From: Patescibacteria group bacterium
GTDB taxonomy: Bacteria > Patescibacteriota > JABMPQ01
DNA: 42,836 bases
Direction of reading: 5' to 3'
NCBI GenBank assembly: GCA_018818965.1
Contig: JAHJQX010000015.1
Span: 1 to 42,836 of the forward strand
The notes under the pieces are model-generated. The model did not search any database, had not been told where the DNA came from, and saw nothing but the letters and a program-made list of their open reading frames with translations. The translations under genes and the position numbers were made by a program. This document shows positions 3,879 through 40,850 of this stretch, one piece after another (the stretch's first letter is position 1; each line of letters starts with the position of its first letter).

Positions 3879-4997
3879 TTACTTTACTGCCTCATTAGTC
3901 AGCTCAATCGATTCTTTAAGTAACTCCTCAAATCTATTCCTAGGAAAGGAGAACACCCATTTGCTTCTATTCTTAGCCACTTTCCCAATCGCCGCTACTA
4001 GCGGCAGACAAACTCCACCACCCCGGTTCTTTTTGTCCAACTTTATTGTATTATACAGCATTTTATGTGGAAAGTCAACGCTATCCTGAAAGCCGTATTG
4101 CTGAAGAATTTTTTTGATCTTGAGGACTTCTGACTTTTTTATTTTACCTAACAGATAACTCATATAGCTTTCTACTATCATCCCCGTCGCCACTGCCTGG
4201 CCATGCGATATCCGATGATTGCTGACCTTTTCGATGGCGTGACCAACGGTGTGGCCGAAATTTAATAAAGACCTTAAACCAGTGACTTCTCGTTCATCAG
4301 CTATAACAGCCCTCCCCTTAGCTACCATACAGGTCTTAACGAGAGGAACAAGTTTTGTCAGATTAGGTCTATTTAAATTAATTGGGTTATTTTCTAGCTT
4401 GGTAAAACTAGCCCGATCAAATAAAATCAGTGTCTTGATTAATTCCGCCATTCCTTCCTGGAGTTGACTCTTAGGTAGTGACTGTAAAAACTGCGGGGTG
4501 ACTAATATCTTGCGTGGTTGATAAAACGTACCGATAATATTCTTGGCATATCGAGAATTAATGCCATTCTTGCCGCCAATTGAGCTATCTACCATCGCCA
4601 GCAATGTAGTCGGTACTTGCCATAGGTCTACCCCCCGCATATAAATAGAGGCAATAAAGCCAGTTAAGTCCCCGGTCACCCCTCCGCCCAAAGCAATTAT
4701 TAAAGTGTCTCGCGGGTATTTTTTTTCGGCTACCTGGCCGATTATTTTAGCAAATACAGGGAAAGATTTAGACTGCTCACCGACTGGGAAAGTGATAAGA
4801 TCAGTTTTGGTGACTGAACTAATTTTTTGTTCTACAGCCCGGCCATATAACTTGGCGACTTGACTGTCACAAAATAAGACAACATACTGGTATTTTTCTT
4901 TTTTAAGTTCGCCGCACAACAAATCAGCTGGTTTTTTATCCAGCATAATAATCTGGGAAGTCCGACCGTCTTTAAATTTGAGATTAATCTTGGCCAT
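3879..4997 (-). CDS. aroB: 3-dehydroquinate synthase
   Basis: Second step of the shikimate pathway, converting DAHP to 3-dehydroquinate with NAD and a divalent metal. Family motifs are clear: FPVGEQSKSF, the glycine-rich NAD site IALGGGVTGDLTGFIAS, VPTTLLAMVDSSIGGKNGIN, and the metal-binding NFGHTVGHAIE. A second histidine region, HRISHGQAVATGM, completes the active site. Length (372 aa) is normal. An upstream TTG at 5000 would add one residue, but the ATG at 4997 is the better start. It overlaps the end of aroF by 14 nt, which implies translational coupling with the first enzyme of the pathway. Confidence 0.95.
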   Translation of the reverse strand: MAKINLKFKDGRTSQIIMLDKKPADLLCGELKKEKYQYVVLFCDSQVAKLYGRAVEQKISSVTKTDLITFPVGEQSKSFPVFAKIIGQVAEKKYPRDTLIIALGGGVTGDLTGFIASIYMRGVDLWQVPTTLLAMVDSSIGGKNGINSRYAKNIIGTFYQPRKILVTPQFLQSLPKSQLQEGMAELIKTLILFDRASFTKLENNPINLNRPNLTKLVPLVKTCMVAKGRAVIADEREVTGLRSLLNFGHTVGHAIEKVSNHRISHGQAVATGMIVESYMSYLLGKIKKSEVLKIKKILQQYGFQDSVDFPHKMLYNTIKLDKKNRGGGVCLPLVAAIGKVAKNRSKWVFSFPRNRFEELLKESIELTNEAVK

Positions 4998-5742
4998 CAA
5001 CTATTTGCTGAATTGCTTTAGCTTTTTTTATCAGCTGAGAAAAATCCGTAAAGTTTAATGATTGTTGACCATCGCACAAAGCCTGATCGGCTTGAGGGTG
5101 AATTTCCACGATTAGGCCAGAAGCACCAGCCCCTATGCCCGCCAGGGCGAGCGGTCCCACCAGCTTTATTTCCCCCGCCGCGTGTGAAGGATCGACAAAA
5201 ACAGTATAATCAGTTTCTTGTTCGATTTTTTTAATCGCGGCTAGATCGAGAGTAAAACGACTACTATCACTAAAAGTCCTTATTCCTCGTTCGACTAATA
5301 TCACCTCCGGATTTTTATCAGCTGCCAGATAACTGGCCGCCCCTAGCCAATCTTTTAAATCAGCTGCCAATCCTCGTTTTAAGAAAACTGGCTTCTCTTG
5401 CTTAGCTAGCTCCTTTAAAAGCTCATAATTCTGCATATTGCGCGCACCCACCTGCCAAAAATCGACTACTACCTCCATATCCTTTATTTGAGAGGAGTCA
5501 GTGATTTCGGTTAGCCATTTTAGGTCGTATTTTTCTTTCGCCTCCTTAATCCAGGAGAGTCCTTCGTTGCCCACTCCCTGAAAACTGTCAGCTGTTGTTC
5601 GGGGTTTATGGATACTGCCCCGCATGATTTTCAGACCAGCCTTTTGCAGAAATTCGGCGGTTTCAAGAATCTGCTCCTTGCTTTCAACCGCGCAAGGACC
5701 AGCGATAATTTCTAAGTTTTCTTGGGAAAATTGTTTAGTCAT
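4984..5742 (-). CDS. aroF: DAHP synthase, type I-beta (KDO8P-synthase-like)
   Basis: Entry reaction of aromatic synthesis, joining PEP and erythrose-4-phosphate. Motifs fit the short type I-beta class: IIAGPCAVES near the N-terminus, MRGSIHKPRTTADSFQG, VGARNMQNYELL, VFLKRGL, ILVERGIRTF and the metal/substrate site VFVDPSHAAG. At 252 aa it consists only of the barrel: the N-terminal ferredoxin-like or fused chorismate-mutase regulatory domains of feedback-controlled relatives are absent. Allosteric inhibition through its own domain is therefore unlikely, which makes transcriptional control upstream in this operon more significant. It follows the transketolase genes, which make erythrose-4-phosphate. 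Confidence 0.95.
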   Translation of the reverse strand: MTKQFSQENLEIIAGPCAVESKEQILETAEFLQKAGLKIMRGSIHKPRTTADSFQGVGNEGLSWIKEAKEKYDLKWLTEITDSSQIKDMEVVVDFWQVGARNMQNYELLKELAKQEKPVFLKRGLAADLKDWLGAASYLAADKNPEVILVERGIRTFSDSSRFTLDLAAIKKIEQETDYTVFVDPSHAAGEIKLVGPLALAGIGAGASGLIVEIHPQADQALCDGQQSLNFTDFSQLIKKAKAIQQIVDGQD

Positions 5743-5756
5743 AAATTTAGCTTAGA

Positions 5757-5923
5757 GACTATTCTGATGTACTACGAAGACACATTGATTTTCCCCAGCG
5801 AGCCTGCCTGCCGGTAGGCAGGGAAAACCAGCTCCGCGATCGACTTCGCTCTCTCCCGATCCGATCGGGAGAACCATGCCCGCTCAGCCGATCGAGGGTC
5901 TTCTTTAGCACATCAGAATAGCC
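5757..5923. repeat. Intergenic element with long matching arms (site A)
   Basis: Arms at 5757-5781 and 5898-5923 are inverted copies of each other (shared CTATTCTGATGT, then CTA and GAAGAC) and flank about 115 nt. Inside are two more hairpins: the palindrome at 5802-5823, and TCTCCCGAT/ATCGGGAGA (perfect 9 bp). The inner part (CTTCGCTC ... CGCTCAG) resembles the cores at 20713-20796 and 26201-26272, but the outer arms are unrelated in sequence. It lies between the tkt C-subunit gene and aroF, inside what is otherwise an operon, so it might act as an RNA stability or partial termination structure. Confidence 0.7.
5802..5823. repeat. GCCTGCC...GGCAGG palindromic repeat, intergenic copy
   Basis: An imperfect palindrome. 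Nineteen nt (5802-5820, GCCTGCCTGCCGGTAGGCA) are identical to 13419-13437 inside trpD. A partial match of 11 nt, in reverse orientation, ends the broken tRNA fragment near 2336. It appears to be a small mobile or spreading palindrome, comparable in behaviour to REP or Rickettsia palindromic elements. Confidence 0.75.
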
Positions 5924-5928
5924 ATCTT

Positions 5929-7702: not shown

Positions 7703-8752
7703 CTAATAACTGCCTAGCCAGCTAAAATAGGGACATTCCTCATTCAGGGCGACAAATAGTTTTTTTACCGCTTTGTCTTCTTGACCACCCTTGAAAGTGA
7801 TAAAAAACAGGTACTGCTCGGGATTTTCCGGATTCTGCTTGGATTGCAGGTAAGTTAAGTCAATCTCATTCTCAACAAAGAAATTAAGCACATCGCGTAG
7901 GGCGCCGACTCTGTTTTTTACCGCTAGCGAGACAGCTGTTTCTGTGCCAGCGGTTTGTTTGTCTTTCTCTCGACTTACCACCCAAAAATGAGCGTGATTT
8001 AAGTCCTTGTCCTCGACTTTCTTGGCCAACAACCTCAACTCCGGCAAATTAGGTAAAGAGGACAGATTAACCAACGCGGCCGTATTCTTTTTCTTACGGG
8101 CTTCAAACAAAGCTTTTTGATTATCATCGCATACTCGTAGTTGGGCTTTGCCTAACTTCTGTTGCAGCCACTTTTGACATTGATCAAGGGCTTCCTTGAC
8201 TCCGTAAACCACAGCTACATTGGCCAGCTTGCTTTCCCGCGAAACTAGATTTAAGTGGATCGGTACCGTTATCTTACGTATTACTGATAGTTTATGCTTA
8301 CCCACTTCAAATAAAATATCGGCCGTTGAACCAGTGATCGGATGACATTGCGGCACTACACCCAAATCCATGTTACTCTTTCTGACCTCAATCAGCAACT
8401 GTTCAAGATTGTTATTAGGCTCCCCTTCACTCTGCTGGCCAAATTCTTCCCTAACTGCCTCTTCTATTAGCGACAAGCGTTCTCCCAAAAAGCCAATCTT
8501 AACTCCACCCTCCAGGGCGATCATGGCCGACTGAACCTCTCGGTAGATAGAGCGGATGTCGTCTTCCTTGACTAGCTTCGCCTGCTTCGCCAGACCCCCG
8601 ACTACTTCATCAAAACGTGTCGGAGAAAAAACCGACAGCCCGGCTTTCTTTTTCTCCCGACCAATCTGCTTTGCCACTTGAGCTCTTTCTTCTAAGAGCT
8701 TGAGAATGCCGCTGTCAATCTGATCTATTTTCTCTCTTTGATTTTTTACCAT
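7703..8752 (-). CDS. aroQ: Chorismate mutase with degenerate prephenate dehydratase-like domain and ACT domain
   Basis: Domain order matches bacterial P-proteins: an AroQ chorismate mutase (1-81), a PDT-like region (84-262) and an ACT domain (about 274-345). The mutase keeps the expected basic residues (R6, R23, K34, R46), with E81 where many have Gln. The PDT-like part aligns by pattern but has lost key motifs. The usual GPxGTFS is FLGERLSL (88-95), SHPQA is VVYGVKEALDQC, the STAxAA segment is absent (DDNQKALFEA), and the catalytic Thr-Arg-Phe is AHF in LNHAHFWVV. The ACT domain keeps RVGAL, but its ESRP-type Phe site is LQSKQN. It probably supplies prephenate and perhaps regulation, not dehydration. 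It is the first structural gene after the 8927-9084 attenuator. Confidence 0.8.
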   Translation of the reverse strand: MVKNQREKIDQIDSGILKLLEERAQVAKQIGREKKKAGLSVFSPTRFDEVVGGLAKQAKLVKEDDIRSIYREVQSAMIALEGGVKIGFLGERLSLIEEAVREEFGQQSEGEPNNNLEQLLIEVRKSNMDLGVVPQCHPITGSTADILFEVGKHKLSVIRKITVPIHLNLVSRESKLANVAVVYGVKEALDQCQKWLQQKLGKAQLRVCDDNQKALFEARKKKNTAALVNLSSLPNLPELRLLAKKVEDKDLNHAHFWVVSREKDKQTAGTETAVSLAVKNRVGALRDVLNFFVENEIDLTYLQSKQNPENPEQYLFFITFKGGQEDKAVKKLFVALNEECPYFSWLGSY

Positions 8753-8793
8753 TGTTTTTTAATTTAAATTACTTATAGATAATAACATATTTT

Positions 8794-8918
8794 TTAGGAC
8801 TTACGTGTTGGGTACAGTTCGAGGCGGAAGTGAGGAGCGAAATGAGACTTACTTAGGCATACGTCGAATGAGCACCGGAGCTTCCAACGAAGAAATGTGC
8901 CAAACACGTAAGTCCTAA
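8794..8918. repeat. Dispersed 125-bp inverted-repeat element, copy 2 (intact ends)
   Basis: The ends are a perfect 16-bp inverted repeat: TTAGGACTTACGTGTT (8794-8809) against its complement at 8903-8918, extending to 18 of 19 positions. The interior has a second imperfect inverted repeat (TTCGAGGCGGAAG versus CTTCCAACGAAG). It is homologous to copy 1 at 1292-1416. It occupies the spacer between the attenuator terminator and the aroQ start, 5 nt past the terminator block, so any readthrough mRNA would contain this hairpin. The 8753-9150 interval carries no full-sized gene: it holds this repeat, the attenuator, the leader peptide and its promoter. Confidence 0.8.
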
Positions 8919-8926
8919 CATTTATC

Positions 8927-8950
8927 AAAAAACCGACCCTGTGGCCGGCG
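8927..8950 (-). terminator. Attenuator terminator of the aroQ-tkt-aroF-aroB operon
   Basis: Read on the minus strand, CCGGCC-ACAG-GGTCGG forms a 6-bp stem (one G-U) followed by six U residues. It is part of a 33-nt block (8924-8956) identical to 15784-15816 before trpE. The upstream sequence GCCGGCG (8983-8989) is complementary to CGCCGGC at 8944-8950, and ACCGAC in the leader is complementary to GTCGGT in the 3' arm. An antiterminator can therefore replace the terminator. This is the standard logic of ribosome-controlled attenuation. Confidence 0.85.
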
Positions 8951-8990
8951 ATTTTCTTTTGAAAAATTCTGAACGCTAAACGCGCCGGCT

Positions 8991-9047
8991 CTAATAGTCG
9001 GTATAGAAATAAAAGCTAAACCAGATTTTATTAATTAAGTTTTGCAT
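8991..9047 (-). CDS. Aromatic-rich leader peptide of the aroQ-tkt-aroF-aroB operon
   Basis: An 18-residue frame, MQNLINKIWFSFYFYTDY, lies between promoter and terminator. Seven of 18 residues are aromatic: W9, F10, F12, Y13, F14, Y15 and Y18. The first eight residues match the trpE leader except at position 5. Its ATG is 9 nt after the -10 box, so the mRNA probably begins 2-3 nt before the start codon and has no room for a Shine-Dalgarno. The stop codon lies 1 nt before the antiterminator arm. A ribosome reaching the stop would cover that arm and favour termination, while one stalled at Trp, Phe or Tyr codons would leave it free. Confidence 0.85.
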   Translation of the reverse strand: MQNLINKIWFSFYFYTDY

Positions 9048-9056
9048 GTTAACTGT

Positions 9057-9084
9057 ATTGTAACAGAAGTCTTTTAGCTGTCAA
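9057..9084 (-). promoter_or_regulatory. Promoter of the aroQ leader
   Basis: On the minus strand TTGACA (9084-9079) and TACAAT (9062-9057) are 16 nt apart. The -10 box is 9 nt before the leader-peptide ATG, exactly as in the trpE leader. The promoter lies in the gap after trpA, so this operon has its own start and does not rely on readthrough from trp. Confidence 0.85.
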
Positions 9085-9150: not shown

Positions 9151-9960
9151 TCAACTGTTTCCATAAAATGATGCTTTAACTAATGTTTTGATAAATTTAT
9201 TAACCGCGCTGATCCTGCGTACTGACGATGATTTTCCCAATAGATTGATAACGGCACTGCCAACTATTGCTACCTCAGCCACCCCCAGCAATTTCTTAAT
9301 ATCAGCTCCCTGAGAAATACCAAAACCTACACCCAGAGGAACTTTAACATATTTCCTTACTCTCCCCAGATATTTAGGTAGATTTTTGCTGAAATCAGTC
9401 CGAGTCCCCGTGACCCCACTGCGCGCCATACAGTAAACAAAACCCTTAACTTCTCGACTAATCTTTTTTAGCCGATCAGCAGTGGTTGTTGGTGATACAA
9501 CAATAATATTGGCTAGGCCATTCTTACGACTAGCAGCGTAAAAACCCTCGCGCTTTTCTTCTTCCCGAGGCATATCAGGAATTATTAAGCCACTGGCACC
9601 AGCTCGCGCGGCCGCCTGACAAAATCGCTCCCCGCCATAGTTATAAACTGTATTGTAATAACCCATAAAGAAAAGAGGGATATTAACCTGACTACTTAGC
9701 TTTTTCATTAAAGCTAGATTATCTAACATACCTATCCCGTTTTGTAAGGCTCGCTGGTTGGCCTGCATAATAGCTGGTCCATCAGCCAGAGGATCAGAAA
9801 ACGGCATCTGTAGTTCGATAAAATCTACTCCGGCTTCAACCATAGCCAAAACTATTTTTTCCGTCTCCTTCATGGAAGGATAGCCAATCACCACGTGAGT
9901 CATTAGTCCAATTCGTTCTTCCTGTTTTATCTTGGCAAATTGTCGGACGATTTTATCCAT
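9151..9960 (-). CDS. trpA: Tryptophan synthase alpha chain
   Basis: Cleaves indole-3-glycerol phosphate to indole, which is channelled to TrpB. The TIM-barrel motifs are present: the catalytic Glu in GVDFIELQMPFSDPLADGP, the second acidic site in GLIIPDMPREEE, and the phosphate-binding GVGFGISQGADIKKL with VAIVGSAVI. Family members usually read ELG-P-SDP, and LQMPFSDP is a minor variant. Length 269 aa is normal. It overlaps trpB by 8 nt and is the last gene of the trp operon. No clear intrinsic terminator is visible between it and the next promoter. Confidence 0.95.
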   Translation of the reverse strand: MDKIVRQFAKIKQEERIGLMTHVVIGYPSMKETEKIVLAMVEAGVDFIELQMPFSDPLADGPAIMQANQRALQNGIGMLDNLALMKKLSSQVNIPLFFMGYYNTVYNYGGERFCQAAARAGASGLIIPDMPREEEKREGFYAASRKNGLANIIVVSPTTTADRLKKISREVKGFVYCMARSGVTGTRTDFSKNLPKYLGRVRKYVKVPLGVGFGISQGADIKKLLGVAEVAIVGSAVINLLGKSSSVRRISAVNKFIKTLVKASFYGNS

Positions 9961-11197
9961 TATTTTCAGCTTGGTTTTTTAAATATCGCCGCCAATTCTT
10001 GCGATCTAACTTATCAGCGGTAATAAATAGATCTTTATCACCTCGGCCGGATATATTTACTACAATTGTTTTACTTTTGGCTAATTTAGGAGCTAACTTT
10101 ATGACAGCCGCGACCGCATGAGCTGATTCTAGAGCTGCTAGAATACCTTCTTTTTGAGCTAATAATTGATAGGCTCGCAGAGCTTCCTGATCAGTCGCCT
10201 GGGTATACTGGACTCTTTTGGACTCATACAAAGACCCGTGTTCTGGCCCAATTCCCGCATAATCAAGCCCAGCCGAAATACTGGCTGTCGGCTGGATATT
10301 CCCCTCTTTGTCTTGGAGAAAATACGACTTAAAACCTTCCACTACCCCTAATCTGCCCCTACCAGTCAAGCGACTAGCATGCTGCCCAATCTTAGCCACG
10401 CCCTGACCACCCGCTTCCACGCCAATCATTTTCACCGCTTGGTCATCTAAGAAAGCATTAAACAAACCAATTGCATTGCTGCCACCCCCGACACAGGCAA
10501 CCAGATAATCAGGCCTTTTAGTCAGCTGCTCTTTTACTTCTAGGCCAATAATACTTTGGAAGTCCCGCACCAGTGAAGGATAAGGATGAGGACCAACTGT
10601 CGAGCCCAACAAAAAATATGAGTCATCTGGATCCGCTAGCCAATCTTTGATGGCCATATTGACAGCGTCCTTTAATGTCTTTGTGCCCTCTTCGACCGCT
10701 ACCACTTCGGCTCCTAATTGTTTCATAAAGAAAACGTTTGGCTGTTGCCTGGCAACATCCTTGGCTCCCATATAAATAGTGCAGGCAAAACCAAATTTAG
10801 CGGCAACTGTTGCCACCGCCAGACCGTGTTGACCTGCTCCCGTTTCCGCAATCAATCGCCGCTTGCCCATTTTCTTAGCTAGCAAAGCCTGAGCAATAGA
10901 ATTGTTCATCTTGTGAGCGCCGGTGTGAAGCAAGCCTTCGTTTTTTAAATATATTTTCGCCCCGCCCAAATGTCGCGTTAGATTCTCAGCCAGATAAAGA
11001 GGAGTCGGTCTGCCGAGATAATCTTTGTATAATTTAAACAACTCACGCTCGAACACTTTATCTCGCTTGATCTCCTCGTAAGCTCGCGTCAATTCCTCTA
11101 GCGCCGGAACCAAAACTTCAGGCATATAACGTCCACCAAAGTCACCAAAGTGGCCGTCCTTATCAGCATCATATTTAGTCTGGAAAAATAGTTTCAT
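9953..11197 (-). CDS. trpB: Tryptophan synthase beta chain (TrpB1 type)
   Basis: A PLP enzyme condensing indole with serine. The Schiff-base lysine is in LHTGAHKMNNSIAQAL, the catalytic glutamate is in LIAETGAGQHGLAVA, and the phosphate-binding loop is VACVGGGSNAIGLFNAF. The N-terminus FGDFGGRYMPEVLVPALEE and the long COMM-domain region mark the TrpB1 class that forms a complex with TrpA, in keeping with the adjacent trpA. Length 414 aa is slightly longer than the usual 395-400 because of a basic C-terminal tail (KLDRKNWRRYLKNQAE). It overlaps trpF by 4 nt (ATGA). Confidence 0.97.
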   Translation of the reverse strand: MKLFFQTKYDADKDGHFGDFGGRYMPEVLVPALEELTRAYEEIKRDKVFERELFKLYKDYLGRPTPLYLAENLTRHLGGAKIYLKNEGLLHTGAHKMNNSIAQALLAKKMGKRRLIAETGAGQHGLAVATVAAKFGFACTIYMGAKDVARQQPNVFFMKQLGAEVVAVEEGTKTLKDAVNMAIKDWLADPDDSYFLLGSTVGPHPYPSLVRDFQSIIGLEVKEQLTKRPDYLVACVGGGSNAIGLFNAFLDDQAVKMIGVEAGGQGVAKIGQHASRLTGRGRLGVVEGFKSYFLQDKEGNIQPTASISAGLDYAGIGPEHGSLYESKRVQYTQATDQEALRAYQLLAQKEGILAALESAHAVAAVIKLAPKLAKSKTIVVNISGRGDKDLFITADKLDRKNWRRYLKNQAENNG

Positions 11198-11808
11198 GAT
11201 TTTATTAGTCTGATTATTTTGACCATTTTATCTATATCTTTCTTCCCTGGCTCTTTTTCTATCTGGCTATTTATATCTATCACCTGTGGATTTAATTTCT
11301 CCAGCACCTCCTCGATATTATCCAAGCCAATCCCTCCGGCTAAGATATCAATGTCATCTAATTGCTTTAATAATTCCAGATTGATCGACTGCCCTGAACC
11401 CCGACCGCTATCTAGCAATATTTTATCAACCATTCCCTGATATTTCGCTATTTCCTCAATGCAGCTCTCATTAGCGCAAATAACTGCTTTCCAGATTTCG
11501 CTGTCACCCCGCAACTCTCGACAATACTCGGGCGCTTCCTGACCATGAAGCTGCAATATATCTAGTTGGCACTCCTGACTGATCTTTTTGGCTTCGTCTT
11601 TCGGCTGATCGACCAAGACACCGACAAATTTAATTTCCTGATTGTTCTCTTTGATCGCCGCTACAATTTCGCTAGCTTTCTCACTAGCAATGTTCCTCGG
11701 ACTCTGAGGATAATTTATAATAAAACCTAAATAATCAGCGCCGGCCTTACTAGCAACTTCGGCATCTGCTAAGTTTGTAACTCCACAGATTTTTACTTTT
11801 GGCTTCAT
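11194..11808 (-). CDS. trpF: Phosphoribosylanthranilate isomerase
   Basis: Amadori rearrangement step of tryptophan synthesis. A 204-aa TIM barrel with the catalytic cysteine in VKICGVTNLADA, the aspartate in FVGVLVDQP, LQLHGQE in the middle, and the phosphate site DILAGGIGLDNIEEVL. It is a separate gene rather than fused to trpC as in enterics. It overlaps trpC by 4 nt and trpB by 4 nt, which implies coupled translation throughout. Confidence 0.95.
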   Translation of the reverse strand: MKPKVKICGVTNLADAEVASKAGADYLGFIINYPQSPRNIASEKASEIVAAIKENNQEIKFVGVLVDQPKDEAKKISQECQLDILQLHGQEAPEYCRELRGDSEIWKAVICANESCIEEIAKYQGMVDKILLDSGRGSGQSINLELLKQLDDIDILAGGIGLDNIEEVLEKLNPQVIDINSQIEKEPGKKDIDKMVKIIRLIKS

Positions 11809-12623
11809 AATAATTTCAATTCCCTAATTTTACCAGCTACATTATTGCTCTCCATCAAGGTGGTGCCTACTAATATCCCTTGTACTCCCGCTTCGTGCAA
11901 CATTTTTACATCAGCCGCTGATTTTATCCCCGATTCAGCGATTAATATCTTGTCCTCTGGTACTGCCGCTGCTAGATCAACCACCACATCCAAGCTGATC
12001 CCGAAAGTGTGTAAATTTCGCGCGTTGATGCCAATAATTTGCGCTTTAGCCTGTAGAGCTTTAGTTAAATCTTTGACGGTGTGTATCTCTACCAGGCATT
12101 CCATACCCAGCTCATGCGTCAGATCAACCAGCTTATTCAATTCACCTTCATCCAACATTGTGGTAATCAGCAACACCGCATCAGCTCCATAATATTTTGA
12201 TTCATAAATTTGGTAAGGATCAAATATAAAGTCTTTTCTCAATACTGGTGTATCTTTAGTTGCTTTTTTCACTCTATTGATAAAACCAATATCACCCTTA
12301 AATTTACTTTTTTCCGTCAAAACCGAGATCGCATTAGCGCCACCCTTCTCGTACAACTTGGCCTGCATCTCAATATCTACTTCTTCATTAATATCGCCCG
12401 CTGAAGGTGAAGCCTTTTTTATTTCCGCTATCAGGGAAGGATTATCAGCTGTTAGAGCCTGAGTAAAATCCCTAACAACAATCTCGCCTAGCGCTTCTCT
12501 CTCAGCTAGTTTCTGCTTAAGCTCCTGCAACGGAAATTTTCCCTTAATTTCAGTCAATTCGGCCTTTTTACGATTAAAAAGATCGATTAAGACACTTGGT
12601 TTTTGTTCTGTTGCTGACGGCAT
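11805..12623 (-). CDS. trpC: Indole-3-glycerol phosphate synthase
   Basis: Ring closure to indole-3-glycerol phosphate. Family landmarks are LIAEIKKASPSAGDI (catalytic Lys), AISVLTEKSKFKGD, VLRKDFIFDPYQIYES, the LVEIHT stretch, IGINARNLHTFGISLD and LIAESGIKSAADV. Length 272 aa is typical of the stand-alone enzyme. It ends in TGA within the ATGA overlap with trpF, which confirms that TGA is a stop in this genome. The ATG start shares a base with the trpD stop (TAATG). Confidence 0.96.
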   Translation of the reverse strand: MPSATEQKPSVLIDLFNRKKAELTEIKGKFPLQELKQKLAEREALGEIVVRDFTQALTADNPSLIAEIKKASPSAGDINEEVDIEMQAKLYEKGGANAISVLTEKSKFKGDIGFINRVKKATKDTPVLRKDFIFDPYQIYESKYYGADAVLLITTMLDEGELNKLVDLTHELGMECLVEIHTVKDLTKALQAKAQIIGINARNLHTFGISLDVVVDLAAAVPEDKILIAESGIKSAADVKMLHEAGVQGILVGTTLMESNNVAGKIRELKLL

Positions 12624-13666
12624 TATAATTTATTACTTACTTCCACCCACTGGGCTAACTTGGCTGCGGCTTGGCCATCCTCAATTACCTCTTCCGCTTT
12701 GACCCGACATTTTTGGTAACTATCGGCCATCTCATAGGCCAACAACCCCATTGCCGCATTAGCAACAACAATGTCTTTTTTTGCCCCTGTCAATTTACCG
12801 GCAAATATATCTTTGATATCTTGAGCGTTTTCCTCAGCTGTACCCCCTTTTACTTCATCTATATTGTAAAACTTAGCTGGCTCAATTTTATACTTTTTAA
12901 CTTCCTGCCCCTTGGCAAACTCATACACCTGAGTAGGAGCCGAAACACTCACCTCATCCAAACCATCGTCTGAGTTAACTATAATCACCTTCTCTGATCC
13001 TAGCTCCATTAGCGCCTGACCCAATTTGGCGGCCATATCGGCTTGAGAAACCCCAATCACCTGATATTGAGCGCCAGCCGGATTAGACAATGGCCCGAGA
13101 AAATTAAAGATCGTCCGAATACCCAGAGCTTTACGCGCTGGCATCACATATTTCATCGCCGGGTGAAAGTTGGGAGCAAACATAAAGCCAATCCCTACCT
13201 CCTCAATGCATTTCTTAACCTGCTGCGTCCCGAGATCAACTTTTACCCCCAGGGCTTCTAACACATCAGCGCTCCCACTTTGCGAACTAGCGGCTCGATT
13301 ACCATGTTTGGCGACCTTGGCTCCCGCGGCCGCGCATACTATGGCCGCTGCCGTGGAGACATTAATCGTCCCCACGCCATCTCCGCCCGTGCCGCAAGTG
13401 TCTAGTAGCCTGCCTGCCGCCTGCCTGCCGGTAGGCATGGGTAAGCAAGGCCGACCAGCGACTTCAACCTGGTTCATCTGCTCTCGCATCACCTTCACCA
13501 TACCCACTATTTCTTCAATCGCCTCTCCTTTTTCTGACAGTGCAACCAGAAAATCGCTAATCTCAGCATCAGTTACTTTCCCTGTCATAATCAGCCGAGT
13601 AACCTCAGCTGCCTCGTCAGCCGTCAGATCATGTCCACCGATTATTTTATTTAAGTATTTTTTCAT
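12623..13666 (-). CDS. trpD: Anthranilate phosphoribosyltransferase with a repeat-encoded insertion
   Basis: Transfers phosphoribose to anthranilate. The PRPP-binding DTCGTGGDG and INVSTAAAIVCAAAG, KHGNRAASSQSGSADVLEALG, and the downstream FMFAPNFHPAMK and RTIFNFLGPLSNP identify it. The ATG at 13666 gives MKKYLNKIIGG; an upstream TTG at 13681 is less likely. Directly before the DTCGTGGDG loop (about residues 74-87) the protein contains CLPMPTGRQAAGRL, which relatives lack. The DNA there is the palindrome repeated at 5802-5823. The frame is intact, so the enzyme probably tolerates the extra loop. It overlaps trpG by 20 nt. Confidence 0.95.
   Translation of the reverse strand: MKKYLNKIIGGHDLTADEAAEVTRLIMTGKVTDAEISDFLVALSEKGEAIEEIVGMVKVMREQMNQVEVAGRPCLPMPTGRQAAGRLLDTCGTGGDGVGTINVSTAAAIVCAAAGAKVAKHGNRAASSQSGSADVLEALGVKVDLGTQQVKKCIEEVGIGFMFAPNFHPAMKYVMPARKALGIRTIFNFLGPLSNPAGAQYQVIGVSQADMAAKLGQALMELGSEKVIIVNSDDGLDEVSVSAPTQVYEFAKGQEVKKYKIEPAKFYNIDEVKGGTAEENAQDIKDIFAGKLTGAKKDIVVANAAMGLLAYEMADSYQKCRVKAEEVIEDGQAAAKLAQWVEVSNKL
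13408..13440. repeat. Palindromic repeat inserted in frame within trpD
   Basis: A partial tandem of GCCTGCCTGCC precedes the palindrome, whose 19 nt at 13419-13437 equal 5802-5820. Translated on the minus strand it gives PMPTGRQAAGR. The number of bases preserves the reading frame. A shorter related string in the Bro-N gene near 28885 (GCCTGCCGG, peptide VPAGKA) may be another, decayed, copy. Confidence 0.8.
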
Positions 13667-14228
13667 TGACCAGATTGGCAATTATTTTAAGACCGTTTTG
13701 GTCTTTAAAGGTTAACACGCTCTCCGGATGAAATTGCACTCCCTCGACCGGATATTCCTGGTGTCGCACTCCCATCACCATATCATCTAGTTTAGCACTT
13801 ACCTCTAAACAACTGGGAATTTTATCACCAATCAGAGAATGATAGCGACCAACTTCTAGTGGGCTAGGCAGGCCAGCATAAATAGTCCGACCGTCATGTT
13901 CGATTTCTGACTGCTTGCCATGATAAGGCCGATCCAACTGCTTTAAACTACCACCAAAAGACTCAATGATTGCTTGATGCCCCAGGCAAACGCCAAATAT
14001 TGGATACTGCTGGTGATATTTCTTGATTATTGGTAAAACATGGCCCGCCTGTTGAGGATTGCCTGGTCCAGGAGATAAAACTATCAGGTTGGGATTGATC
14101 TCAGCCACCTTGGTAATTTCAATATTATTACGATAAACAATCACTTCACATTTAAAACGCTTGAGGTAATCAGCTAAATTAAAGACAAACGAATCAAAAT
14201 TGTCTATTAATAATACACGTTTAAACAT
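13647..14228 (-). CDS. trpG: Anthranilate synthase glutaminase subunit
   Basis: Provides ammonia from glutamine to TrpE. Class I amidotransferase signature: LLIDNFDSFVFNLADYL at the N-terminus, the oxyanion loop LSPGPGNPQQAG, the nucleophile in IFGVCLGHQAI, and the His-Glu pair in GVQFHPESVLT. The internal HGKQSEIEHDG and RYHSLIG are typical of TrpG/PabA. Because a full trp operon surrounds it, TrpG is favoured, but the same protein may also serve folate synthesis. It starts on the last base of trpE (TAATG) and is 193 aa long. Confidence 0.95.
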   Translation of the reverse strand: MFKRVLLIDNFDSFVFNLADYLKRFKCEVIVYRNNIEITKVAEINPNLIVLSPGPGNPQQAGHVLPIIKKYHQQYPIFGVCLGHQAIIESFGGSLKQLDRPYHGKQSEIEHDGRTIYAGLPSPLEVGRYHSLIGDKIPSCLEVSAKLDDMVMGVRHQEYPVEGVQFHPESVLTFKDQNGLKIIANLVNEKILK

Positions 14229-15706
14229 TATTTTTTCTTTAATAAGCCAACTAGGGCGGCGGCCTTAGCCTCAGTCTCCCGGTATTCACTTTCTGGGTCA
14301 GAGTCATAGAGCAAAGTAGCCCCTGCTTGGAGCTCAATTTGATCATCGGCAATGACGGCTGAACGAATAATAATTCCAGTGTTTAGTTCATTATTAAAAG
14401 TTACGTAGCCAACATTGCCGCCGTAAAATCCCCGACGAACTGGTTCCATTTCTTCAATCAGCTCCATCGCCCGCGGCTTTGGTGTACCAGTGAGAGTCCC
14501 GGCATTGAGCGAAGCAATAAAAGCATCAAAGGCGGTAAAGTTCTTTTTGTCCAATCGTCCCCGAACGTGGGCTACAGTGTGCATGACCTTAGAATACTTT
14601 TCTACAAAGCGATAATCAGATAGCTCCACTCCTGGTAAACAAACCCGACTAATATCATTGCGACCTAAGTCAATTAACATATCTAGCTCGGATTTCTCTT
14701 TAGACGAATTGAGTAGGCTCATCATATTCTGATAATCAGTGATCGGGTCATCGCTGCGCTGCGCCGTACCAGAAATGGGTCGGGTATTAACTTCTCCATT
14801 CTCCACCCGAATAAACATCTCGGGTGAAGCGCCCAATAAGCAACTCTTGCCAAAATTGAAATAGAACATATAGGGAGCCGGATTAGCTCGACGGTAAAGA
14901 TCATACAGGGCTAAAGTTGATCCGGTAAATTTTGCTTGGAACTTCTGTGACAAAACCATTTCAAAAATATCACCTTTTTCCATATACTCTTTAGCTTTCT
15001 CTACCCCAGCCACAAATTGCTGCCGGTTGAAATTCGAACGTAATGGCCCGGTAACCTGAAAATCGTCTGGGGACGTTTTCCCATTAGGAATCTGCTTCAA
15101 TCTTTTAGTCAACGACAAACTAGTAAACTGAAAGTAATATAAGGCTGCTTGCTCTTTTAGGTGATCAAAGAAATAAATGACATCTGGCAGAAACAAATGA
15201 AAATCGGGAGTCTGGCCATGATCATGTCGATCGGGTAAATCTTCAAATAAGCGGACAAAATCATAGCTAAATCCTCCATACAAGCCTAATAAACTACTAT
15301 CGGAGGCTTGGCTCTGGAGCAGCGGAGTAAATTTACTAATAAGGGTTCTAATTACAAAAGAAATATTGGGCTGTTTTAATCTCTCACTTTCGGACAGCTG
15401 AAGATTTTCCCTTTTTACTTGTCCCGATATTTCTTGTTTTGAGAAACTGACTTTACTGGCATAATCAAAATCAGATTTATCAAACATTTTTAAAATTTCT
15501 GTGCCGATAGAATTTAAAGCGGTAATCCTAAAATTATTATCCTTGCCAACTACCTCCAGGGGCGGATCAACGGCAAACAAGCTCAAGCGACCATAGATCG
15601 GTGAAATATCAATCGATTCCAGCAAAAAACCAGGCAGATCTTCTGGATACTGGCTGAAATAAGAAACGGCGGTGTTGTATTTTATTGACCTAGTTATTAT
15701 TTCCAT
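14228..15706 (-). CDS. trpE: Anthranilate synthase component I
   Basis: Converts chorismate to anthranilate with TrpG. The N-terminal region has the tryptophan-sensing LLES motif (GFLLESIDISPIYGRLS), so allosteric feedback is likely. The catalytic half shows GDIFEMVLSQKF, PAPYMFYF, GASPEMFIRV, TRPISGTAQR, LVDLGRND-like LIDLGRNDISRVC, GTLTGTPKPRAMELIEE and YGGNVGY. Length 492 aa is typical. It is first in trpEGDCFBA and follows the attenuator at 15787-15941, with 80 nt of spacer after the terminator and no obvious Shine-Dalgarno. Confidence 0.96.
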   Translation of the reverse strand: MEIITRSIKYNTAVSYFSQYPEDLPGFLLESIDISPIYGRLSLFAVDPPLEVVGKDNNFRITALNSIGTEILKMFDKSDFDYASKVSFSKQEISGQVKRENLQLSESERLKQPNISFVIRTLISKFTPLLQSQASDSSLLGLYGGFSYDFVRLFEDLPDRHDHGQTPDFHLFLPDVIYFFDHLKEQAALYYFQFTSLSLTKRLKQIPNGKTSPDDFQVTGPLRSNFNRQQFVAGVEKAKEYMEKGDIFEMVLSQKFQAKFTGSTLALYDLYRRANPAPYMFYFNFGKSCLLGASPEMFIRVENGEVNTRPISGTAQRSDDPITDYQNMMSLLNSSKEKSELDMLIDLGRNDISRVCLPGVELSDYRFVEKYSKVMHTVAHVRGRLDKKNFTAFDAFIASLNAGTLTGTPKPRAMELIEEMEPVRRGFYGGNVGYVTFNNELNTGIIIRSAVIADDQIELQAGATLLYDSDPESEYRETEAKAAALVGLLKKK

Positions 15707-15786
15707 TTTGTCTGTAAATATCTTAACTACGGCACTGGCAAGACTTATATAAAAGTAATGTATGACGAGCTACCATTCATTCCATC

Positions 15787-15810
15787 AAAAAACCGACCCT
15801 GTGGCCGGCG
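15787..15810 (-). terminator. Attenuator terminator of the trp operon
   Basis: Minus-strand CCGGCC-ACAG-GGTCGG followed by six U residues, inside a 33-nt block (15784-15816) identical to the aroQ leader. The competing antiterminator pairs GCCGGCG (15843-15849, leader codons 19-21) with CGCCGGC (15804-15810). An outer helix of ACCGAC (15857-15862, codons 15-16) with GTCGGT (15792-15797) can extend it, so both terminator arms would be occupied. Confidence 0.88.
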
Positions 15811-15835
15811 ATTTTCCTTATAATGATGCAAAATG

Positions 15836-15904
15836 CTAAGCCCGCCGGCTTGAATAGTCGGTAAAGTAAAAGCTAGGCCAGATTTTATTAGTTAAATTTT
15901 GCAT
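15836..15904 (-). CDS. Aromatic-rich leader peptide of the trp operon
   Basis: A 22-residue frame starting MQNLTNKIWPSFYFTDY and ending SSRRA, then TAG. Aromatic residues are W9, F12, Y13, F14 and Y17. It is homologous to the aroQ leader but has only one Trp codon and runs on through the antiterminator arm before stopping. A ribosome paused at codon 9 leaves codons 15-21 free to form the antiterminator. A ribosome translating to the stop covers them and permits the terminator. The ATG is 9 nt after the -10 box, so the transcript is close to leaderless. Confidence 0.87.
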   Translation of the reverse strand: MQNLTNKIWPSFYFTDYSSRRA

Positions 15905-15913
15905 ATCAAATAT

Positions 15914-15941
15914 ATTATAACGAGCTCGCATTTTATGTCAA
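15914..15941 (-). promoter_or_regulatory. Promoter of the trp operon leader
   Basis: Perfect consensus hexamers on the minus strand: TTGACA (15941-15936) and TATAAT (15919-15914) with a 16-nt spacer. It is the strongest-looking promoter in the window. It sits between the aroD stop and trpE, so trp has a start separate from the aro operon upstream. Confidence 0.9.
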
Positions 15942-20701: not shown

Positions 20702-20712
20702 AATAATGCTTG

Positions 20713-20796
20713 ATTTGATCAGCCATAACTACTTCGCTCACCTTAGCCCCGATCAGATCGGTGCCGGGTTCGCTCAGCAATTATGGCTGATCAAAT
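20713..20796. repeat. Intergenic element with perfect 16-bp arms (site B)
   Basis: ATTTGATCAGCCATAA (20713-20728) and its exact complement at 20781-20796 enclose 52 nt. The interior reads CTTCGCTCACC ... GGGTTCGCTCAGC with a small CCGATC/GATCGG hairpin. It resembles the cores of sites A (5757-5923) and C (26201-26272), but the arms are specific to this site. It fills nearly the whole tyrA-aroA spacer on an otherwise continuous minus-strand operon. Confidence 0.75.
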
Positions 20797-20806
20797 AACT
20801 ATCTAT

Positions 20807-22132
20807 TTAGGCTCTTTTAATTAACGCAAAACTAGTGACATTATTTTTCTGATCCTGCAAATCTTTGGCTAGTATTTTTAGATCAAATAAATCGGCGCAG
20901 ACTTGGTTGGCTAATACGGCTGCCGATGATGGCAATTTGCCAGCCGCTAGAGCCTTAGCGGCCGTGGCTTGGTCGATTAGTTCACCCTTGCCTTCGGTAA
21001 TTTTAACACGCGGAAATTTCTTTTTAAGTGTTTTCTGGCATTGTTTAATTGCCTGCGGATGAGAAATTATTTTTTTAACATCTGCTAAATTGACGCTCTT
21101 TTGCGCTAACAAAAAATGCCTGATAGGATGATGAACAATTTGCACCATCCGACATTCACACTGAGCTAGGGCGTGCATACTCTCTAACACTGGTCCCCCG
21201 ACTGAATTATAGATCGCCATTAGGCCGTAATCAATCTTACCCGATTTGAGCTGCTGAATCACGCGCGCCGAATCATACAAATATTTTACCTTGTATTCGC
21301 CAATACCAAATTCCTTAGCGTAAGTCCGCGCTACTTCTTCGTTAAAGCTTCCTTGGCCGCCTTGGATGCCTAGCACTGGTACGGCGTGTTGTTTTTTCTG
21401 CAGCTCACGGTCTATTTTCTTAAACGACCGCTCGATCCGCTGACGCACGCCTTCGCCGTAGGGATTTTTCGTTTGCAAGTCGTAAAATAGCTGCCAGCTA
21501 TCATTGCAAGTTTGATCGATCATCTTTTGTAGTCGCTTGAAGCCAAGGGTATCAATTGGAGTCGGTTTGAGATTTAGCTCTCCTAGTACTCGACCAATGT
21601 AAAAAGCGATACTTTGTGACTCAGCTGCTAATTTGTCATGCTGGCGGGGCGTAATTTCGACTACTTTGAGTTGTTTCTTTTTAAAATAATCACGCCAAAA
21701 TTTGTAGGTGGCTGGCTTCTGTCTTACTCGCGACAATACTATCCGCAAATCCGCCGCTCCCTCTTTAATACTATCGGGGCCAAACATCGGATGCGTACCA
21801 ATAATTTGACAAGTGCGCGGCAGGTGCTTTTTCATCAGATCAACTGGATAGGTTTTAACAGAGCAAACATCAAGGACAGTCCCGCGGGGATTAAAATGCT
21901 GGGCGTTCTTGGCTAAGAAATCAGCAAAACTAGAGATCGGAATACATAAAAAGACAGTTTCCATCTTTAGTGCATCTTTAAGGGTCGTGAAGGACAGTCC
22001 TTTAATCCCCACCCCCGGCGCGACTTTTCGCTGATCGGCCACAAAAACATTAAAATCTGGTCGCAAAAATTCCGCCCAGACCTGACCGAAGCGCCCGTAG
22101 CCAATAATGGCGATGTCTTTTTTCTTAGGCAT
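20807..22132 (-). CDS. tyrA: Fused prephenate/arogenate dehydrogenase and prephenate dehydratase
   Basis: Two enzyme domains in 441 aa. Residues 1-245 are a TyrA dehydrogenase: Rossmann IAIIGYGRFGQ, the histidine in GTHPMFGPDS (H114), and HDKLAAESQSIAFYIGRVL, closest in wording to arogenate-type TyrA (HD..AA.SQ....VGRVL). The position often occupied by a second His is Phe. Residues 253-440 are a prephenate dehydratase: GGQGSFNEEVA, DYGLMAIYNSVGG, IISHPQAIKQC, IDQATAA and the catalytic NNVTSF, where Thr is kept and the usual Arg is Ser. No ACT domain follows. One polypeptide thus holds both competing fates of prephenate. It starts 11 nt after abiEii. Confidence 0.88.
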   Translation of the reverse strand: MPKKKDIAIIGYGRFGQVWAEFLRPDFNVFVADQRKVAPGVGIKGLSFTTLKDALKMETVFLCIPISSFADFLAKNAQHFNPRGTVLDVCSVKTYPVDLMKKHLPRTCQIIGTHPMFGPDSIKEGAADLRIVLSRVRQKPATYKFWRDYFKKKQLKVVEITPRQHDKLAAESQSIAFYIGRVLGELNLKPTPIDTLGFKRLQKMIDQTCNDSWQLFYDLQTKNPYGEGVRQRIERSFKKIDRELQKKQHAVPVLGIQGGQGSFNEEVARTYAKEFGIGEYKVKYLYDSARVIQQLKSGKIDYGLMAIYNSVGGPVLESMHALAQCECRMVQIVHHPIRHFLLAQKSVNLADVKKIISHPQAIKQCQKTLKKKFPRVKITEGKGELIDQATAAKALAAGKLPSSAAVLANQVCADLFDLKILAKDLQDQKNNVTSFALIKRA

Positions 22133-22143
22133 ATGATTATGCT

Positions 22144-23010
22144 CTACAATTTCTCTTTTATTTCTCTCAACAAAATATCTTTAATATTTTTACTCAAATT
22201 CATCACAAACTTTTTATCTTCGATTAAACTCTCCAAATCCAATCTTATGCTTTTCGGATCAACCTTGGAAATAATCCGTAGGAGTTCTGATTTCATTTCA
22301 TCTTGATTACTAAACTCCGGCAGACAAGTCAGATTCGGCTTTATTTCTTTTTGTAAATACCACATCAAATCAAAATAATCCCGACCTTTGACCTTGATAA
22401 AAGCCTGGCCTCTTTTATCTTTTTGTTCCCATTTTCGATAAAGGATGGCTCTAATTTTTGTCGCCAACAAGGTAGGAAGATCGAAGGTTCTAATCAAAAT
22501 TGATTTATTTGCTTTAAATAAAGGGATAGTTTCAATTTTATATTTCTGACAAAAATTAAATTCTTTAAATACTTCAATTTTTAATAAAAGCAGATCAGAC
22601 TCCGACGCGCCAGCTAAACCCAATTCTTTTAAAACCGGAAATTTCAAATAGATCCGGAATTTTTGTACCTTGGTGTTTAAATCTAGATCCGTTTTTTCCT
22701 CAAAATATTTGGCTAAATCTACGGCTAAATTATCGAGATTAATTTTATCCCCTAAATCAACCAGATCGATATCTTCCGAAAGGCGCGGCAAATTATAGCA
22801 ATGCGACAAGCAAGATCCACCGTAAAAAATTAAATTATTATATTTAGGATGAGAATAGACAAAATCCAACACCAAAACTTGCAGATATTCTTTGATTATA
22901 TTCCTTCTAATAACAACCGAAGCTTTATAGTGCTCCTTTATTAAATTTTTGCTAAACGTTTTCGCTTCTTCCATCTGAGCTAATTTAATCTTCTGGCTAC
23001 TTACCAGCAA
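22144..23010 (-). CDS. abiEii: AbiEii-type nucleotidyltransferase toxin
   Basis: Toxin half of a type IV AbiE system, a DNA polymerase-beta-like nucleotidyltransferase (in this family such enzymes modify tRNA). The core motif is FYGGSCLSHCYNLPRLSEDI (GGS at 64-66, catalytic SEDID at 78-82). Later family motifs are LLLLKIEVFKEFN, LLATKIRAIL and KGRDYFDLMWYLQ. Length 288 aa is normal and the coding sequence is clearly AT-richer than the flanking aro genes, suggesting transfer. It overlaps abiEi by 14 nt. The next gene, tyrA, begins only 11 nt downstream. Confidence 0.88.
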   Translation of the reverse strand: MLVSSQKIKLAQMEEAKTFSKNLIKEHYKASVVIRRNIIKEYLQVLVLDFVYSHPKYNNLIFYGGSCLSHCYNLPRLSEDIDLVDLGDKINLDNLAVDLAKYFEEKTDLDLNTKVQKFRIYLKFPVLKELGLAGASESDLLLLKIEVFKEFNFCQKYKIETIPLFKANKSILIRTFDLPTLLATKIRAILYRKWEQKDKRGQAFIKVKGRDYFDLMWYLQKEIKPNLTCLPEFSNQDEMKSELLRIISKVDPKSIRLDLESLIEDKKFVMNLSKNIKDILLREIKEKL

Positions 23011-23641
23011 ATAAATAAGTGTAAATTTCCGCCATTTTTCGAGAACCTTCTAATTTCACATATCCTTTTAATTCCAAAATATCTTGCTTGTTAAAATTTT
23101 CTAAATTCAACCTTAATTCATCTACTGCTTCTTTATTAATTAAGTTATTTTTTCTGAAATAGAGAAAATCAAACAGAGCTTTAACCTTACCCGCTCGGTA
23201 AATTAACAAATTGCCCTTTTTGGTCATTTCAAACTGGCAAAAAAGACTTTCTTTAATTTGATGATAAACAAAAAGTCCTAATTCATTGGCAAATCTGGCC
23301 GTTTTGTTTTTAGTAACCAAAGTAAAATGCTGAGTAAATTCAGTTAAGATATTATTCTGAGCTAGAACATACTCCAAGCTCAAATAGGCTGGAGGATACA
23401 GAATATGACCAACAAATTCCAGATAATCACTATATTCTCCTTTTTTCTCAGTTTCTTCAATGTAATCCCGCGAGACATAAACTCCTTGACGCAGCGGAAC
23501 AATTTTTTTTCTCTTGGCTAATCGGGAAAGATATATCCGCAGATATTTCTTATCATCCTCTAGACTAACTAAGTCATTGATCGAGAAATAAGGCAAATCT
23601 TTTACCTTATTTAGAATATCCTTGGTGATAGAGATTGGCAT
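22997..23641 (-). CDS. abiEi: AbiEi-type antitoxin and autorepressor
   Basis: The 214-aa antitoxin partner. An N-terminal winged-helix segment (about 1-60: FSINDLVSLEDDKKYLRIYLSRL, then KIVPLRQGVYVS) is followed by the characteristic PPAYLSLEYVLAQNNILTE and the C-terminal domain that neutralises the toxin. In characterised AbiE systems the antitoxin binds inverted repeats in its own promoter; here an 18-bp inverted repeat directly abuts the start codon and overlaps the promoter, matching that expectation. AT-rich like its partner. Confidence 0.88.
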   Translation of the reverse strand: MPISITKDILNKVKDLPYFSINDLVSLEDDKKYLRIYLSRLAKRKKIVPLRQGVYVSRDYIEETEKKGEYSDYLEFVGHILYPPAYLSLEYVLAQNNILTEFTQHFTLVTKNKTARFANELGLFVYHQIKESLFCQFEMTKKGNLLIYRAGKVKALFDFLYFRKNNLINKEAVDELRLNLENFNKQDILELKGYVKLEGSRKMAEIYTYLFAGK

Positions 23642-31465: not shown

Positions 31466-32521
31466 TTATTTATCCTTCTGCCGCTCCGGCCGCAACTTCC
31501 TTACTTCTTCTCCCGCACTCCATATCTCTGATTCGCGCATCTCGCGCAGTTCTTCTTCTAGCTTCTCCCGATAATCCGGATCGCTATTAGCTTCAAGAGT
31601 GATGCGTGTTTCTTCACCATTCTTAACATTTTCGTATAGCTTTTTAAAGACTGGCTCCGTCGCCTCGCGAAACTTACCTTTCCAATCCAACGCTCCTCGC
31701 TGAGCCGTCGTCGAGCAATTAGCATACATCCAATCCATTCCCTTCTCGCCGATTAAGGGATATAGGCTCTGCGTCGCTTCCTCGACTGTCTCATTGAAGG
31801 CTTCCGATGGACTATGACCATTTTCCCGCAAGACATTGTATTGGGCTTCCATGATGCCAGCGATAGCGCCCATCAACACCCCTCGCTCACCCGTCAAGTC
31901 ACTCCAGACTTCGTTCTCAAAAGTTGTGGGAAATAGAAAACCAGAACCAACCGCCATTCCCAGCGCCTTCACTCGATCCTCTGCCTTACCCGTAGCATCC
32001 TGATGGATAGCATAGCTAGAATTTACCCCTTTGCCAGCTAAAAACAATTCGCGTAGCTTGGCACCAGGTCCCTTGGGCGCAACTAAGATCACATCCACAT
32101 CTTTCGGTGGCACCACACCCGTCTGTTCTTTGAAGGTGATCGAGAAGCCATGCGAAAAATATAAGGCTTTACCTTTGGTCAGATACGGCTTGATCTTTGT
32201 CCACAATCCTTTTTGCCCCGCGTCCGATAGCAAATATTCAATAATTGTTCCCTTCTGGGCTGCTTCCTCAAGCGGAAATAGTGTCTCATCGGGCACCCAG
32301 CCATCAGCGATTGCCTTATCCCAGGACTTAGAGCCTTCCCGCTGACCAACGATCACCTTAATACCATTGTCCTTTAAGTTCATAGCCTGTCCCGGTCCCT
32401 GCACACCATAACCGAGAATAACTACAGTCTCGTCTCTTAACACTTCCTGCGCCTTGCTAAGCGGAAATTCTTCTCGGGTGACGACTTCCTCTTCGGTGCC
32501 GCCAAAATTGATTTTTGTCAT
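31466..32521 (-). CDS. ilvC: Ketol-acid reductoisomerase, fungal/Bacteroidota-like class
   Basis: Isomerises and reduces acetolactate or acetohydroxybutyrate. Rossmann loop ILGYGVQGPGQAMNLKDNG, cofactor loop VGQREGSKSWDKAIADGW, LYFSHGFSITFKE, VILVAPKGPGAKLRELF, GERGVLMGAIAGIMEAQY, and the knotted domain ENGHSPSEAFNETVEEATQS with ANCSTTAQRGALDW. The wording of these motifs, and the C-terminus PDYREKLEEELREMRESEIW, matches what I recall of yeast Ilv5 and Bacteroides enzymes far better than the usual class I bacterial IlvC. Length 351 aa. Last gene of the operon. Confidence 0.95.
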   Translation of the reverse strand: MTKINFGGTEEEVVTREEFPLSKAQEVLRDETVVILGYGVQGPGQAMNLKDNGIKVIVGQREGSKSWDKAIADGWVPDETLFPLEEAAQKGTIIEYLLSDAGQKGLWTKIKPYLTKGKALYFSHGFSITFKEQTGVVPPKDVDVILVAPKGPGAKLRELFLAGKGVNSSYAIHQDATGKAEDRVKALGMAVGSGFLFPTTFENEVWSDLTGERGVLMGAIAGIMEAQYNVLRENGHSPSEAFNETVEEATQSLYPLIGEKGMDWMYANCSTTAQRGALDWKGKFREATEPVFKKLYENVKNGEETRITLEANSDPDYREKLEEELREMRESEIWSAGEEVRKLRPERQKDK

Positions 32522-32533
32522 TTATTTATAATT

Positions 32534-34723: not shown

Positions 34724-34743
34724 AAATTTAAGACTTAATGTTT

Positions 34744-36848: not shown

Positions 36849-36857
36849 ATAGATATA

Positions 36858-37757: not shown

Positions 37758-37763
37758 AATTGT

Positions 37764-38828: not shown

Positions 38829-38863
38829 AGTTTTAATTAGCTTAGATAACAGATAGCAGATAT

Positions 38864-39331: not shown

Positions 39332-39336
39332 GGCTT

Positions 39337-40848: not shown

Positions 40849-40850
40849 AA

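Follow-up and report, generated by a model that had tools for sequence, protein, structure and literature searches.

A predicted ribosome-mediated attenuator with a mixed aromatic leader before trpE, and its copy before pheA, in a Patescibacteria genome

In a Patescibacteria genome of 1.2 Mb, the trp operon is preceded on the minus strand by a segment, 15784-15941, that very probably acts as a ribosome-mediated transcription attenuator, in which a short leader peptide with Trp, Phe and Tyr codons would select between a terminator and an antiterminator. Positions refer to the window, the 42,836-nt stretch of DNA analysed here, which is one contig of this genome. A sequence-only reading of the same DNA had proposed such an attenuator, and the proposal is supported by the exactness of its parts, by a paralogous copy, by covariation with a sister genome of the same genus (G001) and by the recurrence of similar leaders across the phylum.

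The minus strand of the window carries an aromatic supercluster in the order aminotransferase, TyrA-PDT fusion, aroA, aroC, aroK, aroE, aroD and trpEGDCFBA (9151-15706), followed by pheA (7703-8752, encoding a chorismate mutase-prephenate dehydratase, CM-PDT), two transketolase halves, DAHP synthase (4984-5742) and aroB (3879-5000). The reported element is located between aroD and trpE (14228-15706), the first gene of the operon, whose product is most closely related to TrpE of Patescibacteria/Kerfeldbacteria MAGs (51-60% identity), a kinship that points to a member of the Candidate Phyla Radiation (CPR). The genome encodes two prephenate dehydratases, one fused to prephenate dehydrogenase (20807-22132) and one fused to chorismate mutase (7703-8752).

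The promoter, 22-codon leader, GCCGGCG/CGCCGGC pair and six-U terminator named in the sequence-only reading are each verified base by base, all on the minus strand. The promoter consists of a -35 hexamer TTGACA (15936-15941) and a -10 hexamer TATAAT (15914-15919), matches at 12 of 12 positions with a 16-nt spacer, and is the top site among 15 in 4 kb. The leader ORF, MQNLTNKIWPSFYFTDYSSRRA and a stop codon (15836-15904), contains the aromatic codons W9, F12, Y13, F14 and Y17, of which the first four are taken as regulatory. Its ATG (15904) lies 9 nt past the -10 hexamer, a distance that is equal in the trp copy, the pheA copy and G001, and the leader mRNA is therefore predicted to be nearly leaderless. 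Region 2 (AGCCGGCG, 15843-15850), the 5' arm of the antiterminator, overlaps the final leader codons, and its GCCGGCG (15849-15843) is completely complementary to region 3 (CGCCGGC, 15810-15804), which is common to the antiterminator and the terminator. The terminator hairpin GCCGGCC-ACAG-GGUCGGU (15792-15809, -10.8 kcal/mol) and its tract of 6 U (15787-15792) form an intrinsic terminator between the leader and the first gene. A possible extra antiterminator helix involves ACCGAC (15857-15862, codons 15-16), which is matched by the complementary GUCGGU in arm 4 of the terminator. Within 15791-15904, the trp leader start AUGCAAAAU also shows perfect 9-nt complementarity to AUUUUGCAU in the loop between regions 2 and 3, a pairing that might promote termination in the absence of leader translation; it is missing from the other two copies and was set aside.

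In the proposed mechanism, RNA polymerase would begin just a few bases ahead of the leader ATG. When Trp-tRNA (probably also Phe- or Tyr-tRNA) is charged, the ribosome would proceed to the stop codon and cover region 2, regions 3 and 4 would form the intrinsic terminator, and trpE would stay untranscribed. A ribosome stalled at W9 (or at F12-F14) would leave region 2 free to pair with the emerging region 3, and this pairing would block the terminator and let the trp operon be read. The duplicate would act likewise on pheA (and on transketolase, DAHP synthase and aroB if these are co-transcribed); its leader is richer in Phe and Tyr codons. The transcription start, the translation of the leader, the ribosome footprint and the amino acids sensed are deduced here from sequence.

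Folding models that assume a ribosome footprint size reproduce this behaviour, in that a stalled ribosome frees region 2 and a ribosome at the stop codon covers it. With a 15-nt footprint, the antiterminator has a probability near 1 when the ribosome stalls no later than codon 15, and near 0 from codon 16, so that W9, F12, Y13 and F14 are predicted to be effective and Y17 is not. In equilibrium folding, the ACCGAC/GUCGGU helix shifts the switch to codon 11-12; if the fold reaches equilibrium, W9 would then be the one codon that counts at trpE. Control of trpE by Trp through W9 is a firm prediction, since this codon opens the modelled switch in every case; sensing of Phe and Tyr at trpE would require the antiterminator to form before region 4 is made. 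The earlier expectation that low charging of Trp, Phe or Tyr opens the operon is thus upheld by all models for W9 and by one model for F12, Y13 and F14, and is not upheld for Y17.

It is quite possible, if short of probable, that the trp copy senses Trp alone, with F12-Y13-F14 left over from the pheA leader of which it would be a copy. Equilibrium folding with the ACCGAC/GUCGGU helix leaves W9 (with P10 and S11) as the sole opener of the trp copy, while in the pheA copy, which carries F10 where the trp copy has P10, W9, F10 and F12 count and the switch lies one codon later. Opposed to Trp-only sensing are co-transcriptional folding before region 4, under which stalls as late as codon 15 still give the antiterminator, the A.C mismatch that interrupts the ACCGAC helix in G001, and the retention of F12, Y13 and F14 in all three copies. 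The simplest history is that the trp operon acquired, by duplication, a mixed leader belonging to the shared pathway, like those before DAHP synthase and pheA, the direction being inferred.

The mixed leader is present before trpE as the sequence-only reading had claimed, but it is not peculiar to the trp operon. That reading had missed a second copy before pheA (8927-9084, minus strand), which was found by scanning the window for a promoter with a short ORF. This copy comprises the promoter TTGACA-16-TACAAT (9057-9084), a leader ORF paralogous to the trp leader (MQNLINKIWFSFYFYTDY and a stop codon, 8991-9047), region 2 (AGCCGGCG, 8983-8990), and region 3 with the terminator hairpin and U tract (8927-8950). 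The two copies agree letter for letter in regions 2, 3 and 4 and in the U tract, while the promoter spacer and the inter-arm loop differ considerably. The leader frame is nevertheless kept, the single coding indel being of 3 nt and adding a Tyr codon, and the changes at N3, Y13 and F14 are synonymous. The presence of two similar copies on one contig, with other inverted-repeat insertions nearby, might point to a dispersed repeat or mobile element that carries a promoter and hairpin and has no regulatory role. This is barely conceivable, as a search of the whole 1.2 Mb genome gives only two real copies, each before aromatic genes, and the orthologue in G001 occupies the same place before pheA.

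The pheA of G001 is 91% identical to that of the host and is preceded by the orthologous leader MKNLINEIYFSFYFTDF (ending in a stop codon), with aroC and shikimate kinase running directly up to the leader on the same contig. A conserved aromatic frame and covarying stems in relatives had been proposed as checks on the attenuator, and the aromatic frame and a covarying antiterminator stem are found here. All aligned aromatic codons of the host and G001 pheA leaders remain aromatic, apart from the 3-nt indel, and the Trp codon W9 is replaced by Y9. Searches of G001 for trpE and trpB found neither (the trpB search gave only a remote PLP enzyme), and the absence of trp genes is likely rather than proven, because the genome is 79% complete. 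In the antiterminator, which excludes the terminator, 7/7 pairs are kept with three changed on both sides (G-C to A-U, C-G to U-A and G-C to A-U) and one on one side (C-G to U-G), and pairing falls to 10-52% once the partner is displaced by 1-3 columns. The terminator likewise retains all of its pairs (7/7) despite three changes, each one-sided. The covariation score is reached in 26 of 500 shuffles, a strong though not overwhelming signal for three sequences, and it comes from the single host-G001 comparison because there are only three close copies.

Taken alone, the trp copy makes a modest case. Its folding energy is no better than that of shuffled sequences (z = -0.05, with z = -1.89 for the whole leader of the pheA copy), and aromatic codons make up 5 of its 22 codons (p = 0.012 against the window proteins). 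Whole-leader folding energy was dropped as evidence, the trp copy not being significant; of the folding check proposed earlier, total energy is unremarkable and the footprint models do give a switch. The element is lifted above chance by the paralogue at 8927-9084 with aromatic codons at 7 of 18 positions (p = 7e-5), the G001 orthologue with its compensatory changes, and the recurrence of such leaders across the phylum. A constitutive promoter followed by a leaky terminator, with the small ORF untranslated and meaningless, would be compatible with the strong consensus matches of promoter and terminator and with the unremarkable whole-leader folding. It is very unlikely, because the in-frame indel, the aromatic-for-aromatic replacements, the compensatory antiterminator changes and the phylum-wide match of codons to pathway require translation and an alternative stem. 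Riboswitches, T-boxes and TRAP-like systems also switch between terminator and antiterminator before aromatic genes, and a metabolite- or protein-binding leader could in principle take the place of ribosome stalling. We regard this as extremely unlikely: an Rfam scan of the window at the gathering score gives tRNA only, with no trp leader, T-box or riboswitch and no family match at the element, and what is conserved is a reading frame and two switching stems without an aptamer-like core.

Further support for ribosome-mediated attenuation comes from scans of DAHP synthase loci (present in 30 of 380 phylum genomes), prephenate dehydratase (PDT) loci and TrpE loci with fixed criteria. The 62.8 kb of upstream sequence yields 20 leader-plus-terminator matches and the 568 kb of control yields 7, among them a true leader that a contig end has displaced. 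A proviso is that the criteria were fixed after such leaders had been seen in some of the same loci; the PDT loci and most TrpE loci provide the cleaner test, since they were fetched after the criteria were set. Leaders with a promoter and terminator carry mixed F/Y/W codons before DAHP synthase, F-runs before prephenate dehydratase and WW before trpE. The codon counts are 13 W, 2 F and 1 Y in TrpE leaders, 1 W, 24 F and 3 Y in PDT leaders, and 14 W, 57 F and 29 Y in mixed leaders (DAHP synthase and one chorismate mutase), not all representing independent events, as some leader-bearing genomes are related. Thirty leaders show a candidate antiterminator arm, which usually spans the stop codon or lies close to it and in most of them beats shuffles. 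Promoters of the TTGACA type stand 5-11 nt ahead of the ATG in many DAHP synthase leaders (22-24 nt in the family of L154, L156 and L159), and the promoters of L179 and L174 are weak. The match at position 1496 of the DAHP synthase locus L168 was rejected as probably false, the true leader of this locus lying at 173.

Where a leader is found before DAHP synthase in the phylum, it is usually a mixed one. In the loci with the closest trpE relatives (L006, L021, L007 and L009), trpE sits behind DAHP synthase, and a mixed leader is located upstream of DAHP synthase, with the runs NYFDFYWF, NFWFYFSY, YFSWFWY and FNWYWFY, respectively (the L007 leader is MNNTQQYFSWFWYTMLRRVRVFSVVND, with its ATG at 681). 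No leader is found between DAHP synthase and trpE in these relatives, and this gene order accounts for the lack of an orthologous leader directly before trpE. WW or WWW leaders with terminators precede trpE in five Peregrinibacteria-type genomes (L013, L016, L017, L019 and L020). In other Peregrinibacteria (L010, L011, L012, L014 and L015), trpE lies behind a small TrpR/YerC-like reading frame, which is preceded by GTACTA..TAGTAC-like palindromes resembling the trp operator. When the pheA copy was used as a DNA query against the 380 phylum genomes, only short chance-like matches appeared beyond the host's own two copies, and the wider class was found through peptide and terminator scans because the DNA search was uninformative. 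A stem pattern search in relatives was discarded, as its matches were GC-rich chance hits and the gap in the pattern was one base too short for the window copy itself to be recovered.

Attenuation by leader peptides is textbook knowledge from E. coli trpL and pheL (PMC11802643). The present element resembles these in its product-codon leader, in an antiterminator and terminator that share one arm, and in the position of region 2 near the leader stop, but differs in having a mixed W/F/Y run instead of tandem Trp codons or a Phe-only run, in its near-leaderless start, and in the two paralogous copies (trp and phe) in one genome. With a single Trp codon in a W-P-S-F-Y-F run, the trp copy is not classed as a classical trp leader despite its similar working; regulatory codons are present all the same, and the pheA copy is richer in them. 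In Peregrinibacteria and other Patescibacteria, the classical WW leaders that precede trpE (L013, L016, L017, L019, L020 and L213) share the phylum, the mechanism and the gene, but contain Trp codons only, with no F/Y run, and several stand behind a small TrpR/YerC-like frame. Actinobacterial trp leaders have double or triple UGG.

In Corynebacterium glutamicum, the AroR leader with Phe-Tyr-Phe precedes aroF and is reported to mediate attenuation under limitation of Phe and not of Tyr (PMC11802643; PMC4046766). As a Phe/Tyr leader before a DAHP synthase, it is the nearest functional match to the DAHP synthase-type leaders of the phylum; it belongs to another phylum, no Trp codon is mentioned for it, and C. 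glutamicum trpE has a WWW leader of its own. The AroR-type arrangement is the same at the DAHP synthase loci of the phylum, while the leaders of the window have trpE or pheA behind them, and the peptides are too short for homology to be assessed. The AroR leader work is reportedly that of Neshat et al. in 2014. The uORFC-13-1 motif before aroF of Acholeplasma is a predicted uORF with one or more Phe codons and a terminator (PMC8632094), and is alike in placing a Phe-codon uORF and terminator before DAHP synthase; it is unlike in having a ribosome-binding site and other conserved structure, and as a prediction it is confined to Acholeplasma and environmental sequences. The trpL of Sinorhizobium meliloti (peTrpL/rnTrpL), whose leader mRNA begins at the ATG and which attenuates trpE(G) (PMC7298713), shares the leaderless start and the attenuation of trpE(G), but is an alphaproteobacterial leader with Trp codons and known roles in trans.

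The mechanism is known, while mixed and duplicated leaders and their presence throughout the CPR appear to be unreported in the literature searched. The sequence-only reading's statement that no mixed leader had been described in this kind of organism agrees with our literature search on attenuation and leader peptides in CPR/Patescibacteria, which returned no description, most subscription papers lying outside its reach. The usual description of CPR bacteria is that they lack amino-acid biosynthesis (PMC11665869). Predicted switches that would respond to tRNA charging and match the pathway suggest that CPR members retaining a pathway regulate it actively, by attenuation, which needs only ribosome, polymerase and RNA. 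Since the trp, pheA and phylum-wide elements precede aromatic genes, these minimal bacteria appear to tune their aromatic pathway in this way. We lean towards a wider reading in which a set of attenuators, near-leaderless in many cases, is in use phylum-wide in the CPR. A single leader peptide before the shared pathway would there read Phe, Tyr and Trp supply jointly, and leaders would be duplicated and would exchange codons as the operons they serve are altered (here W with F/Y for trp and phe; W to Y where trp genes were not found). Such leaders would then be a natural record of codon change upon operon gain or loss, and the element offers a simple test of multi-amino-acid sensing by a single leader.

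Several other features were observed in and around the supercluster. An inverted-repeat insertion (8787-8925, arms of 34 nt, 82% complementary) lies between the terminator of the pheA leader and pheA; it is missing at the matching site in G001, which has a similar 130-nt stretch elsewhere (L123:1413-1544), suggesting a small mobile palindromic element. Inverted-repeat intergenic stretches of mutually dissimilar sequence also precede DAHP synthase (5743-5928) and aroA (20707-20806). A large gene run that includes ketol-acid reductoisomerase (31466-42822) reaches the contig end, so that its start and any branched-chain leader fall outside the contig. Between the aminotransferase and the TyrA-PDT fusion, an AbiEii-type nucleotidyltransferase toxin gene and an uncharacterised partner ORF are encoded (22144-23641), and the aromatic cluster of G001 also contains an AbiEii-like gene (L123:17397-18011).
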